Under the pieces are notes generated by a model. It ran no database searches, was not told the DNA's origin, and worked only from the letters and a program-made list of their open reading frames with translations. A program made the position numbers and the translations under genes. Positions 53,743-59,371 of a stretch of DNA of 64,000 nt are shown here, piece by piece. Position 1 is the first letter of the stretch. Each line of letters starts with the position of its first letter. The stretch covers positions 1 to 64,000 of the forward strand of contig NZ_CP031311.1 in NCBI RefSeq assembly GCF_004799685.1, in the 5' to 3' direction. The DNA comes from Halobellus limi (GTDB lineage: Archaea; Halobacteriota; Halobacteria; Halobacteriales; Haloferacaceae).

Positions 53743-53885
53743 GCACGGGTGGGGAAACGCCGAAATAGACGTTGTCGGCCCCGGCTATATCGAAGGGAGT
53801 GGCCGCCGAGTGAGGTCGCGGTCGAATCTGAGGGAGTGAATCGATCGCACGGGCGTTTTTGTATCCCAAACCGGGACGTGCAGCC

Positions 53886-54299
53886 ATGATCTCGACGGGC
53901 ATCGCGCTGGCGCTCGGAGCGTTGCTACTGTTCGGCGGCTGGGCGGTGACCGCGGGGCTCGCGACGCGGTCCGTGTCGGCCGTCAACGCCGTCTTTCTCT
54001 CCTACGTGGCGAGCATCGGAATAGCCGGCGCGTACGTCCTCCTCGCGAGGCGGCCGATCACCGGGACGCGGACGGACGTGGGCTTCGCCCTCGCTTCGGG
54101 CGTGTTTCTCACGGCGGGGAGCATCAGCTTCTACGCGGCGCTCACGCGGGGCAATATGGCGATCGTCTCCGCCGTCGCCGCGCTGTACTTCGTCGTGCCG
54201 GCGTTCGTCGGCGTCGTCTATCTTGACGTCGCGCTCAGCGCCGCGAACGCGGTCGGACTGGCGCTCGCCGTCGTCGCCGTCGTGCTGATCGCGCTGTGA
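53886..54299 (+). CDS. EamA-like half transporter
   Basis: A 137-residue protein with four or five hydrophobic segments: GIALALGALLLFGGWAV, AVFLSYVASIG, GFALASGVFLTAGS, and YFVVPAFVGVVYLDVALSAANAVGLALAVVAVVLIAL (given by ends). Size and pattern fit single EamA/EmrE-type repeats that form dimeric transporters. Substrate unknown. It lies 143 bases after the HTH gene. Confidence 0.8.
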   Translation: MISTGIALALGALLLFGGWAVTAGLATRSVSAVNAVFLSYVASIGIAGAYVLLARRPITGTRTDVGFALASGVFLTAGSISFYAALTRGNMAIVSAVAALYFVVPAFVGVVYLDVALSAANAVGLALAVVAVVLIAL

Positions 54300-54362: not shown

Positions 54363-55256
54363 ATGCCCGGAATGGACGAGGAGACGGCCGAACTGATCCA
54401 GTCGGTGCGGCGCGACCCGCAGCGGAAGGCGCTCGTCTCTCACCTCGCGGACGGCCCGAAGGCCGTGAAGAGCGGTTCCGACACCGCCGCGAACGCGGAC
54501 ACCGAGGCCCTTCTCGCGGAGTTGGTCGATGAGGGGATCGTCGAGCGCGACGGGGAGGCGTACGCCCTCACCGACTTCGGCGAGCGGGTCCACGAGTACG
54601 CCACGCGCGAGTGGAACCCCTCGAACGAGGGGACGAAGCGCGCGGCGACGTTCGATACCCTCGCCGACTGCGAGTGGCACTGTTCGGCGTGTGAACTCCC
54701 CAGTTCCCAGCCCGCGAAGGACATCCAGATGCTCCGCAAGGAGGGCTTCGAGTTCGTCCAGAACACCGGGCAGGGCCAGGGCGATTACCGTCACTGCGAG
54801 AACTGCGAGGACACGACCTTTCACAGAAAGCTCAAGTACCCGTTCCCGACCCAGAAGTCGATCACGCGGCAGGAGATGCCCGCCTCGTTCAAGCGCCGCG
54901 TTCGCGACCTCTACGGCGGCCGCGACGCGTTCGACGGCTCCTCGCCGAGCACGACCCTGGAGGTCGACCACCGCGTGCCCGAGGTCCGGTGGGAGGAGTC
55001 TGAGAACTACGACTACGAGTCGATGAGCGACGAGGAGGTCCGCGAACACTTCCAGATCCTCACGCGGACGCACAACCTCCTGAAGAGCCGGAAGTGCGAG
55101 GCGTGCGTCGAGAGCGGGGAGCGACCGCCGTTTATGCAGATCGAATACTACTACGAGGGAGGCCAGAAGTACGAGGAGGAGGTCGGCTGCGTGGGGTGCG
55201 GCTGGTACAACCCCCACGAGTGGCGGGCGTCGTTGCAGGCGGAACTGGACGGGTAG
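54363..55256 (+). CDS. HNH nuclease-like protein with N-terminal HTH
   Basis: A 297-residue protein. Residues 15-80 form a winged HTH (PQRKALVSHLADGPKAVK and ALTDFGERVHEYA). Several zinc pairs follow (Cys107/110, 145/148, 245/248, 276/279). Between them is the HNH-type region LEVDHRVPEVRW (His203) with THNLLKSRKCEAC (Asn238). Such proteins are often restriction enzymes; the DNA-binding plus HNH layout fits. The C5-cytosine methyltransferase at 58.3 kb could be its partner, but the two are separated by the codBA pair. The function is inferred, not shown. Confidence 0.7.
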   Translation: MPGMDEETAELIQSVRRDPQRKALVSHLADGPKAVKSGSDTAANADTEALLAELVDEGIVERDGEAYALTDFGERVHEYATREWNPSNEGTKRAATFDTLADCEWHCSACELPSSQPAKDIQMLRKEGFEFVQNTGQGQGDYRHCENCEDTTFHRKLKYPFPTQKSITRQEMPASFKRRVRDLYGGRDAFDGSSPSTTLEVDHRVPEVRWEESENYDYESMSDEEVREHFQILTRTHNLLKSRKCEACVESGERPPFMQIEYYYEGGQKYEEEVGCVGCGWYNPHEWRASLQAELDG

Positions 55257-55273
55257 CTATCGGAACCGACAGC

Positions 55274-56668
55274 TCAGAGCCGCTCCGCGTCGGGGTCGAC
55301 GTCGTGGCCGTCGACGATCCCGTTCGCTTCGAGGAGGTAGTAGAGCGCGACGTGCGCGAGGAACGCGGCGACGAGTCCGTTCAGCGCCGCCCCGACGGGG
55401 CCCGGAATCACCTGCGGGGCCGCGAGGCCCGGAACGACCTGTCCGGCCGTGAGCACGGCGACGACCGCCCCGACGGCGTAGGCGAGAACGCCGGTCCAGC
55501 GGACGCTCGCGAAGCGGACGTCCTCCATCTTCGGGACGCGCATCCGCCAGCACAGCAGGAAGTCGGCGATGACGACCCCGCCGAGCGGTGGCACGTACTG
55601 ACCGAGCGTCGACAGCCACGGGATGAGGAGGCTGTCGGCGCCGACCAGTGCGAGGACGATCCCGATCGCCCCGCCGGCCAGGATGAACGGGCGCTTGCGG
55701 TCGAACTCGAAGGCCTCGCTGCCGGCGACGCCGAAGGCGTAGGCGGCGTTGTCGTTCGTCGTCCAGATGTTGAGGATCAACGCGAGGAGGCCGACCGCCG
55801 CGAGCCCCTGCGCCGCGAGCACCTCGTAGAGGTCGCCGGCGGGCGTGACGTCGTAGACCGACCCGCCGACGGCACCGGAGAGGAAGAGGAAGCCGTTCCC
55901 GACGAGGAACGCGATGAGGCCGGCCCAGAACCCGACGCGGGTGCTGCTCGCGAAGCGCGCCCAGTTCGGGGCCTGCGTGCCGCCGCTGATGAACGTCCCC
56001 ACGACGATGGTGACGGCGGCGGCGAAGCCCATCTCGCTGCCGCTCGCGCCGCCGAAGAGCCCCGAGAGGCCGCCGACGTCCCCCACGGCGATGAAGATCG
56101 AGAGGAGGCCAACGACGACCAGGATCGGCACGGCCACGAGCGAGAGCCGCTCCATCCCCTCGTAGCCGAAGTACGCGGTCGCGAGGTGCAGGATCCCCCA
56201 GATCAGGATGAGCGCCGCGGTGAACGTCGGGGTGTTCAGATCGAAAAACGTCGCTGTCGGGATCGCGACCATCGGAATCGTGACGCCGAACCAGCCGACC
56301 TGCGTGCCGCCGAGGATGAGGTCTGCGAACTTCGCGCCCCAACTGCCGAAACTGTACCGCGCGAGGAGGACGGTCGTCAGCCCGGCCTTCGCGGCGATGC
56401 CGCACAGCGTCGCGACGTAGACGCCGAGGATCGCGTAGCCGGCGGCCATCGCCGTCAGCATCGGACCGAAGCCCATCGCCGCGCCGACCTCGGCACCGGC
56501 CCAGAGCGTGCCGGCGAAGAACACGAACCCGAGGAGGACGGCAGAGATGCTCACCAGGCCCTTCCGCTCGTCGCCGGGAACGTGATCGAGCGGGTAGTCG
56601 GGATCGGGAAGTTCCTCGTCGCCGAACACGAACCGTCGCCACGCGGGCGTGTCGTCTTCTGTTGCCAT
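55274..56668 (-). CDS. codB: Cytosine permease (nucleobase:cation symporter-1)
   Basis: A 464-residue membrane protein with about 12 membrane segments, starting MATEDDTPAWRRF. The NCS1 pattern LLARYSFGSWGAKF and ISGGTQAPNWARFASS is present, together with WTTNDNAAYAFG. It imports cytosine with a cation. It is divergently transcribed from codA, with about 250 bases between. An upstream in-frame extension is ignored because the polar N-terminus at MATEDD fits the family. Confidence 0.88.
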   Translation of the reverse strand: MATEDDTPAWRRFVFGDEELPDPDYPLDHVPGDERKGLVSISAVLLGFVFFAGTLWAGAEVGAAMGFGPMLTAMAAGYAILGVYVATLCGIAAKAGLTTVLLARYSFGSWGAKFADLILGGTQVGWFGVTIPMVAIPTATFFDLNTPTFTAALILIWGILHLATAYFGYEGMERLSLVAVPILVVVGLLSIFIAVGDVGGLSGLFGGASGSEMGFAAAVTIVVGTFISGGTQAPNWARFASSTRVGFWAGLIAFLVGNGFLFLSGAVGGSVYDVTPAGDLYEVLAAQGLAAVGLLALILNIWTTNDNAAYAFGVAGSEAFEFDRKRPFILAGGAIGIVLALVGADSLLIPWLSTLGQYVPPLGGVVIADFLLCWRMRVPKMEDVRFASVRWTGVLAYAVGAVVAVLTAGQVVPGLAAPQVIPGPVGAALNGLVAAFLAHVALYYLLEANGIVDGHDVDPDAERL

Positions 56669-56922
56669 CGATTTCGGCTCACCGTCCGATTGTATAGTAA
56701 TTGTGGATCCTGCCCACATTTGTGACGAACGGGATCGATGCGTCCGTCTTTCCGGGCAGTTCGATTGACATCTACGGGGGATGAATAGATCCCATTCGAA
56801 TCTTTGCACGTCCGGGATCGATCAGACCATCACCCGGTCCGAGCCGGCGTTCGGGGACCGAGAGCGAACGCGTGGTTCCGGTTACCCAAAGCTGAAGCGT
56901 CGTTGCGGCCTCTGCTCGCGAT

Positions 56923-58206
56923 ATGGCCGAATACATCGTCACGAACGGCCGGACCGTGGCCGGCGACTCCGTCGACGTCGAGGTCCGTGCGGGAGCGATC
57001 GACCGCCTGGTTCCCGCGGGCGACGGCGACCCGGACGCGTTCCCCGCCGACCGTCGGTACGACGCCGACGGCCGGCTGGTGACGCCACCGCTCGTCGAAC
57101 CCCACGTCCACCTCGACGCGACCGGAACGGCCGGCGATCCCTCCTGGAACGACAGCGGCACGCTCGCGGAGGGCATCGAGGTCTGGGCGGAGTACAAAGG
57201 CGACATCACCGTCGAGGACATCCTCGAACGAGCGACGCGGACGGTGGAGTGGTACGCCTCTCACGGCGTGACGCGCATCCGGACGCACGCCGACACGACC
57301 GAGCCGTCGCTGACCACCGTCGAGGCGCTGGTGGAGCTGAAGTCGCGGGTTTCCGATCTCGTGGACCTCCAGGTCGTCGCGTTCCCGCAGGACGGGATCC
57401 TCACCGACGAGTCGCACGAGGACCTGCTCGAAGACGCCGTCGAGATGGGCGTGGACCTGGTGGGCGGGATCCCGCACAACGAGTACACCCGCGAAGACGG
57501 CGTGCAGAGCGTCGGGATCGCGTGCGACCTGGCGGAGCGACACGGCCTCCCGCTGGATCTCCACATCGACGAGACGGACGACCCGAACTCGCGGTTCACG
57601 GAGGTGCTCGCCAGCGAGGCGATAAAGCGCGGGATCGGCGACCGCGTCACGGCGAGTCACACGACGGCGACGCACTCGTACAACAACGCCTACGCCGACA
57701 AACTGATCTCGATGCTCGCCGAGAGCGGCGTCTCCGTGGTGACGAACCCGCCAGATAACTCCGTCCTGCAGGGCGCGTACGACGACTACCCACGGCGGCG
57801 CGGTCACACCCGCATCGACGAACTGCGCGAGGCCGGCGTCACGGTCGGGATCGGCCACGACTCCGTGCTCGACCCGTGGTACCACTACGGCGTCGCCGAC
57901 CCGCTGGACGCGGCGTTCATCCTCGCGCACTACGCCCACATGGCCGGTCGCGCCGACGTCGAGGTGCTCTGGGAGATGCTGACCGACGCCAACGCCGAGG
58001 TCTTCGACGCGGACGGATACGGTCTCAGCGAGGGCGACGAAGGCTCGCTCGTCGTCTACGACGCACCCGACGGCTTCAACGCCCTGCGGACGCAGGCCCC
58101 GCGGACGCTGGTGCTTCGAGAGGGCGACCCGATCGCGCGGACGGAGCCGAGCACGACGACGGTGCACCGGTCGGACGGGGCGGTCGACGTCGACTACAAG
58201 CGGTAG
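56923..58206 (+). CDS. codA: Cytosine deaminase
   Basis: A 427-residue amidohydrolase. Metal-binding motifs are EPHVHLDATG, RTHADTTEP, LHIDETDD (catalytic Glu) and ASHTTATHSY. The C-terminal part includes IGHDSVLDPW. It converts cytosine to uracil and ammonia, salvaging pyrimidine taken up by CodB. The length is close to bacterial CodA. No adenosine-specific motif is seen. The promoter may be in the codB-codA gap. Confidence 0.88.
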   Translation: MAEYIVTNGRTVAGDSVDVEVRAGAIDRLVPAGDGDPDAFPADRRYDADGRLVTPPLVEPHVHLDATGTAGDPSWNDSGTLAEGIEVWAEYKGDITVEDILERATRTVEWYASHGVTRIRTHADTTEPSLTTVEALVELKSRVSDLVDLQVVAFPQDGILTDESHEDLLEDAVEMGVDLVGGIPHNEYTREDGVQSVGIACDLAERHGLPLDLHIDETDDPNSRFTEVLASEAIKRGIGDRVTASHTTATHSYNNAYADKLISMLAESGVSVVTNPPDNSVLQGAYDDYPRRRGHTRIDELREAGVTVGIGHDSVLDPWYHYGVADPLDAAFILAHYAHMAGRADVEVLWEMLTDANAEVFDADGYGLSEGDEGSLVVYDAPDGFNALRTQAPRTLVLREGDPIARTEPSTTTVHRSDGAVDVDYKR

Positions 58207-58306
58207 CGCCGACCGTCAGTCGCGGCCCGCGAGGGCGCGACCCGTCGACCGCGGGATCCCCGCGGTGTTTAAATACGATCGCGAACGAGATGCGGGCAGA
58301 TTCCGA

Positions 58307-59371
58307 ATGCCGGGTTCCGACTTCGATGGCTCCTCGATCAGGGTGCTCGATCTGTTCTGCGGCGGCGGCGGCCTCTCGGAGGGCTTCCTGCAGGCCGGTT
58401 ACGACGTCGTCGCCGGCGTCGACGTCGACGAGGACTTCCTCGCGACCTACGAGCACAACCACGAGGACGCGCTCGCGATCCAGGCGGACCTCTCCGAAAT
58501 CGGCCCCGAGGAGTTCTTCGCGGAGCACCCGGTCGACGCGGGAGAAATCGACGTCGTGATCGGCGGCCCGCCCTGCAAGGGGTTCAGCATCGCGGGCCAC
58601 CGCGACCCCGACGACGAGCGGAACTACCTCGTCGGGAACTTCATCGACTTCGTCGAGTTCGTCGAGCCCGCGGCGTTCGTGATGGAGAACGTCCCGGGGA
58701 TCAAGTCGATGGAGGGCGGGGACACCCTCCGGGCGATCCTGGAGGGGTTCGAGCGCGCCGGCTACGAGAAGCCGGCGTACGAGACGCTGAACGCCGCCGA
58801 CTACGGGGTGCCGCAGAACCGCCGCCGGGTGATCTTCCAGGGGCGGCGCGACGGGTCGATCCCGACGTACCCCGAGCGGACCCACGGCCCCTCGAAACAG
58901 GCGACGCTCACGGGGAAACAGCTAGAGCCGTACGTGACCGTCGAGGAGGCCCTCCTGGAGCGGGGCGCGGACGGGGACGAGCGGCCCCCCATCGAGGCGT
59001 TACCGAACCACGAGAAGACGGATCACTCCGCGGAGATGGTCGAGCGGATTTCGGAGGTCGAACCCGGCGAGAGCCTCTACGAGAGTTACGGCGACAGCTG
59101 GCGGCGACTCCCCCGCGACGAGCCGTCGATCACGATCAAGGAGAACCACAACGCGCCGTTCGTCCACCCCGTCGAGGACCGCGTCGGGACCGTCCGGGAG
59201 TGTGCGATCCTCCAGTCGTTCCCCGACGACTACGTGTTCCAGGGGGCCAAGAGCACGCAGTTGAAAGTCGTCGGCAACGCCGTCCCGCCGGGGCTCTCGA
59301 AGGCCATCGCGGAGGCGCTGGCCGGGGACCTAGCAGAGATGGAGCGGAGTCCCGCCGCCAGCGCGGAGTGA
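58307..59371 (+). CDS. DNA cytosine-5 methyltransferase
   Basis: A 354-residue enzyme with all main C5 motifs. I is DLFCGGGGLSEGF, IV is GGPPCKGFS (catalytic Cys90), VI is ENVPG, VIII is QNRRRVIF, and IX is near LQSFPDD with X as VGNAVPP. The target-recognition region (about 185-285) is short. The ATG at 58307 is chosen because TTTAAATA (58268-58275) lies about 25-30 bases upstream of the expected transcript start. Usually part of a restriction-modification system or an orphan; no restriction gene is directly next to it. Confidence 0.92.
   Translation: MPGSDFDGSSIRVLDLFCGGGGLSEGFLQAGYDVVAGVDVDEDFLATYEHNHEDALAIQADLSEIGPEEFFAEHPVDAGEIDVVIGGPPCKGFSIAGHRDPDDERNYLVGNFIDFVEFVEPAAFVMENVPGIKSMEGGDTLRAILEGFERAGYEKPAYETLNAADYGVPQNRRRVIFQGRRDGSIPTYPERTHGPSKQATLTGKQLEPYVTVEEALLERGADGDERPPIEALPNHEKTDHSAEMVERISEVEPGESLYESYGDSWRRLPRDEPSITIKENHNAPFVHPVEDRVGTVRECAILQSFPDDYVFQGAKSTQLKVVGNAVPPGLSKAIAEALAGDLAEMERSPAASAE

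Follow-up and report, generated by a model that had tools for sequence, protein, structure and literature searches.

A candidate CATG-specific restriction–modification pair separated by cytosine-salvage genes in Halobellus limi

Introduction

In the window studied here, a 64,000-nucleotide stretch of the Halobellus limi genome (G000), genes for an HNH nuclease-like protein and a C5-cytosine DNA methyltransferase (MTase) are found on either side of the cytosine permease and deaminase genes codB and codA. This raises the question of whether the outer genes are the two halves of a restriction–modification (R-M) system split by codBA, or whether all four genes form a module linking cytosine handling to DNA cytosine modification. 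Both possibilities had been put forward in a sequence-only reading of the locus. The comparative analysis reported here favors the former, and we hold it to be highly probable that the locus encodes a type II R-M system whose nuclease would cut CATG and whose MTase would protect this site by m5C, with codBA as an unrelated cassette in between.

Gene content of the locus

Open reading frames and family matches located all four genes where the sequence-only reading had placed them (Table 1). The HNH and MTase genes do face the same way, as it had claimed, both being on the + strand and separated by 3.05 kb. The codB and codA genes are divergent and hence do not form one operon. The dN/dS values of the HNH, MTase and codA genes were well below 1. 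Upstream of the nuclease gene, an ORF at 53859-54299 of the window has a match to just one EamA domain and is roughly half as long as EamA transporters usually are.

Table 1 Features of the locus, in window coordinates
Feature	Position	Strand	Details
NlaIII/IceA-like HNH restriction endonuclease with N-terminal winged helix (predicted)	54363-55256	+	297 aa
codB, cytosine permease	55274-56668	-	NCBIfam equivalog PRK11017, 400 bits
codA, cytosine deaminase subfamily	56923-58206	+	NCBIfam PRK07572, 447 bits
TATA-like box TTTAAATAC	58268-58276	+	31-39 bp upstream of MTase start; intergenic sequence comparison
DNA (cytosine-5) methyltransferase	58307-59371	+	354 aa; PF00145, E 6.5e-62

Residues 176-290 of the HNH protein matched the Pfam family ICEA (PF05315; IceA1/NlaIII family) at 34.8 bits, above the cut-off of 24, and residues 95-295 matched the PADLOC type II model REase_II (PDLC03537, E 2.5e-27), so that the protein does group with restriction enzymes. 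An alignment of 10 sequences, two of them bacterial, showed that D202-H203 and N238 were invariant, as were eight paired cysteines (CxxC at 107/110, 145/148, 245/248 and 276/279). A winged helix that evolves fast makes up residues 1-84, with 52-81% identity in the clade versus 84-91% for the remainder of the protein. The earlier label of a winged-HTH/HNH protein was borne out by weak Pfam wHTH matches and by Foldseek, in which the predicted model, poor past residue 242, was matched only at the N-terminal winged helix, by the MarR/ArsR-type regulator fold. A PDB sequence search with the nuclease gave no meaningful match, and no homologs were found in plasmid, phage and viral-contig collections.

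The MTase is a complete C5 enzyme that matched the PADLOC type II model MTase_II (E 4.1e-96). It is the only PF00145 protein, and so the only m5C MTase, encoded in this genome. Its target-recognition signature, SxYxxYxDxW...T(I/V)KENH, is common to mollicute MTases whose genes adjoin those of UpaP162-family enzymes. The TTAAATA core of the TATA-like box was also present upstream of the MTase gene in G126, G276, G095, G344 and G048 in the intergenic comparison, and the box may represent a separate promoter for the MTase.

Gene order in related genomes

Among 341 Halobacteria genomes, the nuclease was identified in 12 and a close MTase in 12, with 11 in common, all within one family; 11 of the 13 carriers held both genes. 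The gene-order comparison also took in further congeners beyond this set. The order nuclease-codB-codA-MTase, with nuclease and MTase 3 kb apart, was found in seven genomes (G000, G217, G341, G342, G289, G219 and G030), and its recurrence in six others of the clade indicates that the arrangement in H. limi is not due to chance. The nuclease gene directly adjoins the MTase gene in five genomes that lack codBA at the pair, in the same order and on the same strand, with a gap of about 190-500 bp. Four of these (G126, G276, G095 and G344) are congeners, and the fifth (G109) belongs to another genus, g9, with the pair at another chromosomal place. The sequence-only reading had named proximity in relatives among the checks on its proposal that the two genes are R-M halves split by codBA; that proposal is well supported by these direct neighbors, one pair of which is from another genus, and by the placement of the HNH protein in restriction families. 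In G014, G314, G317, G343 and G345, serB adjoins hel308 and both nuclease and MTase are missing there. The trees of the nuclease, MTase and cod proteins broadly matched the species tree.

The codBA genes occur in a clade of six genomes and in G030 and G048, which form the basal pair, but are missing from two lineages between, a pattern that fits two separate gains or a single gain followed by loss. No convincing codBA remnant was found in the pair-bearing genomes without codBA. A winged-helix-like ORF of ~75-90 aa lies between nuclease and MTase in the four codBA-less congeners (L039, L041, L035 and L040), and this small ORF at the place of codBA could be a controller gene.

A single module in which the uptake and deamination of cytosine are tied to its methylation in DNA would agree with the contiguity of the four genes in seven genomes. 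Gene order led us to reject it, and we now give it almost no chance of being correct: five genomes have the pair but no codBA beside it, G048 has lost most of codB yet retains intact R and M genes, and plasmids of Haloarcula and Halostagnicola carry stand-alone divergent codB/codA pairs that have no such R-M genes in their vicinity. No known step joins free cytosine to m5C in DNA, which also counts against such a module. The stand-alone occurrence on these plasmids identifies codBA as an ordinary cytosine-salvage cassette, and codB and codA are interposed cargo outside the R-M mechanism.

Depletion of CATG in pair-bearing genomes

The depletion of CATG tracked the nuclease-MTase pair. Markov observed/expected (O/E) ratios were obtained from 400-kb samples of four pair-bearing genomes, two low-GC congeners without the pair, and plasmid stretches from other haloarchaea. 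CATG was the most avoided of the tested palindromes in pair genomes, with O/E of 0.16-0.37 versus 0.63-0.99 in 11 control sets, and the two ranges did not overlap. At matched GC content, O/E was 0.16 in G219 (63.9% GC) versus 0.76 in Haloarcula GH36 (63.9%). Nearly all NCATGN contexts were depleted in the pair genomes, most strongly beside G or C. Because of their composition (47-48% GC), G014 and G317 are poor as the only negative controls, and the plasmids from other haloarchaea and whole-genome counts were therefore added.

SSCATGSS was counted over the whole genomes of 119 members of the family. It occurred 30-102 times in the 12 genomes with both genes, with a median of 399 elsewhere, 108 occurrences in the MTase-only genome and 84 in the nuclease-only genome. 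The ratio of SSCATGSS to the control pattern differed between genomes with and without the pair (Mann-Whitney p 1e-8, 119 genomes, with phylogeny uncorrected), and the reference patterns TGCA and CTCGAG did not track the pair in the family genome counts. Genus g9 provides the best control, with 44 occurrences of SSCATGSS in pair-bearing G109 versus 317-507 in ten congeners without the pair. Counts were low (106-168) in four pair-less g17 genomes as well, indicating that CATG avoidance has other causes too. Low-GC segments of pair-bearing genomes, which were probably acquired, contained 6 CATG versus 87 expected in G000 and 3 versus 78 in G126. Furthermore, TATG, into which CATG turns when its m5C is deaminated, was raised in three of the four sampled pair genomes, which lends weak support to C5 methylation of CATG followed by deamination.

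The possibility that the pair is a real R-M system acting on another palindrome (TTCGAA or CTCGAG), the depletion of CATG being otherwise caused, appears improbable. CTCGAG was depleted too (O/E 0.12-0.33), but its counts overlapped (941 in G109 versus 604-2072 in its congeners) and the 119-genome count ruled it out as the site. TTCGAA had O/E of 0.31-0.43 in the Halobellus clade and is a reported methylation motif in Halobellus limi (PMC7230728), yet its O/E showed just a mild reduction in G109 (0.74), which has the pair, and fell to 0.30 in one control. CATG was chosen over both because it separates all sets and fits the known site of both protein families. GGCC, a site suggested by similarity to M.HaeIII, was discarded, its O/E of 0.84-0.92 showing no avoidance in pair genomes. 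With CATG as the preferred site, the HNH protein is predicted to be a type II restriction nuclease cutting unmethylated CATG, and the MTase is predicted to methylate CATG, presumably to m5C.

Other palindromes gave patterns of their own. In genus g2, SSTGCASS occurred 70-131 times in G006, G008, G009, G011, G015, G027 and G038 versus 607-843 in other g2 genomes, which looks like an unrelated R-M signature. GGCGCC was nearly absent from the G219 sample (L097-L116; O/E 0.02, 6 versus 363 expected) but not from G126, probably owing to another R-M system in G219. CTCGAG occurred 5551 times in G367 of genus g11 versus about 230-550 in three other g11 genomes.

Genomes with separated or single genes

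The two genes are not always together. In G048, the nuclease gene, a codB remnant and codA sit 75 kb from the MTase gene, and in G061 nuclease and MTase are on different contigs. G017, from a different genus, carries the MTase without the nuclease, and G098 (Halopenitus group) carries an intact-looking nuclease gene with zero PF00145 proteins in an assembly that is 99% complete in 40 contigs. These four cases, and the existence of conserved orphans among haloarchaeal MTases (PMC6471742), would suit an MTase that has become an orphan with a regulatory or epigenetic role, the HNH nuclease having decayed or been repurposed and restriction being no longer live. We give this reading little credence, since the motifs of the nuclease do not vary between genera or even in the bacterial relatives, the nuclease dN/dS is ~0.16-0.25, and the low-GC segments are nearly free of CATG. 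Every Halobellus-clade genome with the MTase also encodes an ICEA nuclease; G017, in another genus, is an exception to co-presence.

A nuclease that actively cuts CATG should kill a cell that has no matching MTase, and the nuclease-only G098, the chief difficulty for our reading, counts against an active CATG system. It may be that the MTase gene was lost from the assembly, that the nuclease is inactive, or that a different MTase provides the protection. A dispersed R-M system in which the fused winged helix controls nuclease expression, permitting both R/M separation (by unrelated genes, over 75 kb or across contigs) and a nuclease-only genome while restriction remains active, is conceivable but on balance unlikely.

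In the R-M mechanism that we favor, unmethylated CATG would be cut by the nuclease, and the MTase would methylate the C of this site at position 5 in both strands; host DNA would thus be spared and incoming DNA cut. The codBA genes would be an unrelated cytosine-salvage cassette sitting between R and M in part of the clade, and their separation would be tolerable, since the MTase seems to be served by a promoter of its own. The comparisons establish the gene identities, the recurring adjacency and co-occurrence of the two genes, and a CATG depletion that tracks them, whereas catalytic activity, the exact site, the cut position, the base that is modified and what the winged helix does are what we infer here. 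Systems of the m5C type are largely missed by SMRT methylome surveys, and a haloarchaeal one here gains a specific predicted site, CATG. G109 and its ten relatives also provide a within-genus natural comparison of the effect of R-M on genome composition.

Comparison with known systems

The m5C MTase of halovirus HGTV-1 (gene 236) is 47% identical to the Halobellus MTase and has the same target-recognition signature, but the viral gene occurs without an ICEA nuclease. CATG, CTAG and GATC are all absent from the ~59 kb of HGTV-1 DNA examined (L182, L208), where 187, 86 and 258 were expected. A milder under-representation of CATG has been published for HF1-group haloviruses (PMC7230728), and the text of a survey of halobacterial R-M genes does not mention CATG (PMC6471742).

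Two bacterial relatives, from a Patescibacteria MAG (L055) and an Anaerolineaceae MAG (L056), are 42% identical over the nuclease domain, and type II MTases adjoin them or lie nearby. They differ from the haloarchaeal proteins in missing the winged helix and in having MTase partners of N6/N4 type, with a D12-type enzyme in L055 as well.

The UpaP162 system (UPV229/UPV230) of Ureaplasma and other mollicutes resembles the Halobellus pair through its MTase. In the plasmid search, the closest MTases from mollicutes were encoded directly before genes of UpaP162-family enzymes; these C5-family MTases are 38% identical to ours, with the same signature and CATG as the site. CATG is the site cut by UpaP162, and the MTase of this system, a C5 homolog, protects against NlaIII; the authors argued that UPV229, although homologous to C5 enzymes, produces m6A (PMC6191088). 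In contrast, the UpaP162-family nuclease does not resemble the HNH protein and matches no Pfam domain.

On the nuclease side, the closest counterparts are NlaIII and HpyI (IceA1 with M.HpyI), which belong to the same ICEA HNH family. IceA1 is a CATG-recognizing isoschizomer of NlaIII (PMC2816704; PMC3261200, citing Xu 2002). The Halobellus pair shares the CATG site, here predicted, and the adjacency of nuclease and MTase, here in several genomes; it differs in the extra N-terminal winged helix of the nuclease and in being split by codBA in the Halobellus clade. The partner MTase of NlaIII and HpyI is of the N6-adenine type, whereas the partner here is a PF00145 C5-cytosine MTase, so that an NlaIII-like nuclease is paired with a C5 instead of an adenine MTase.
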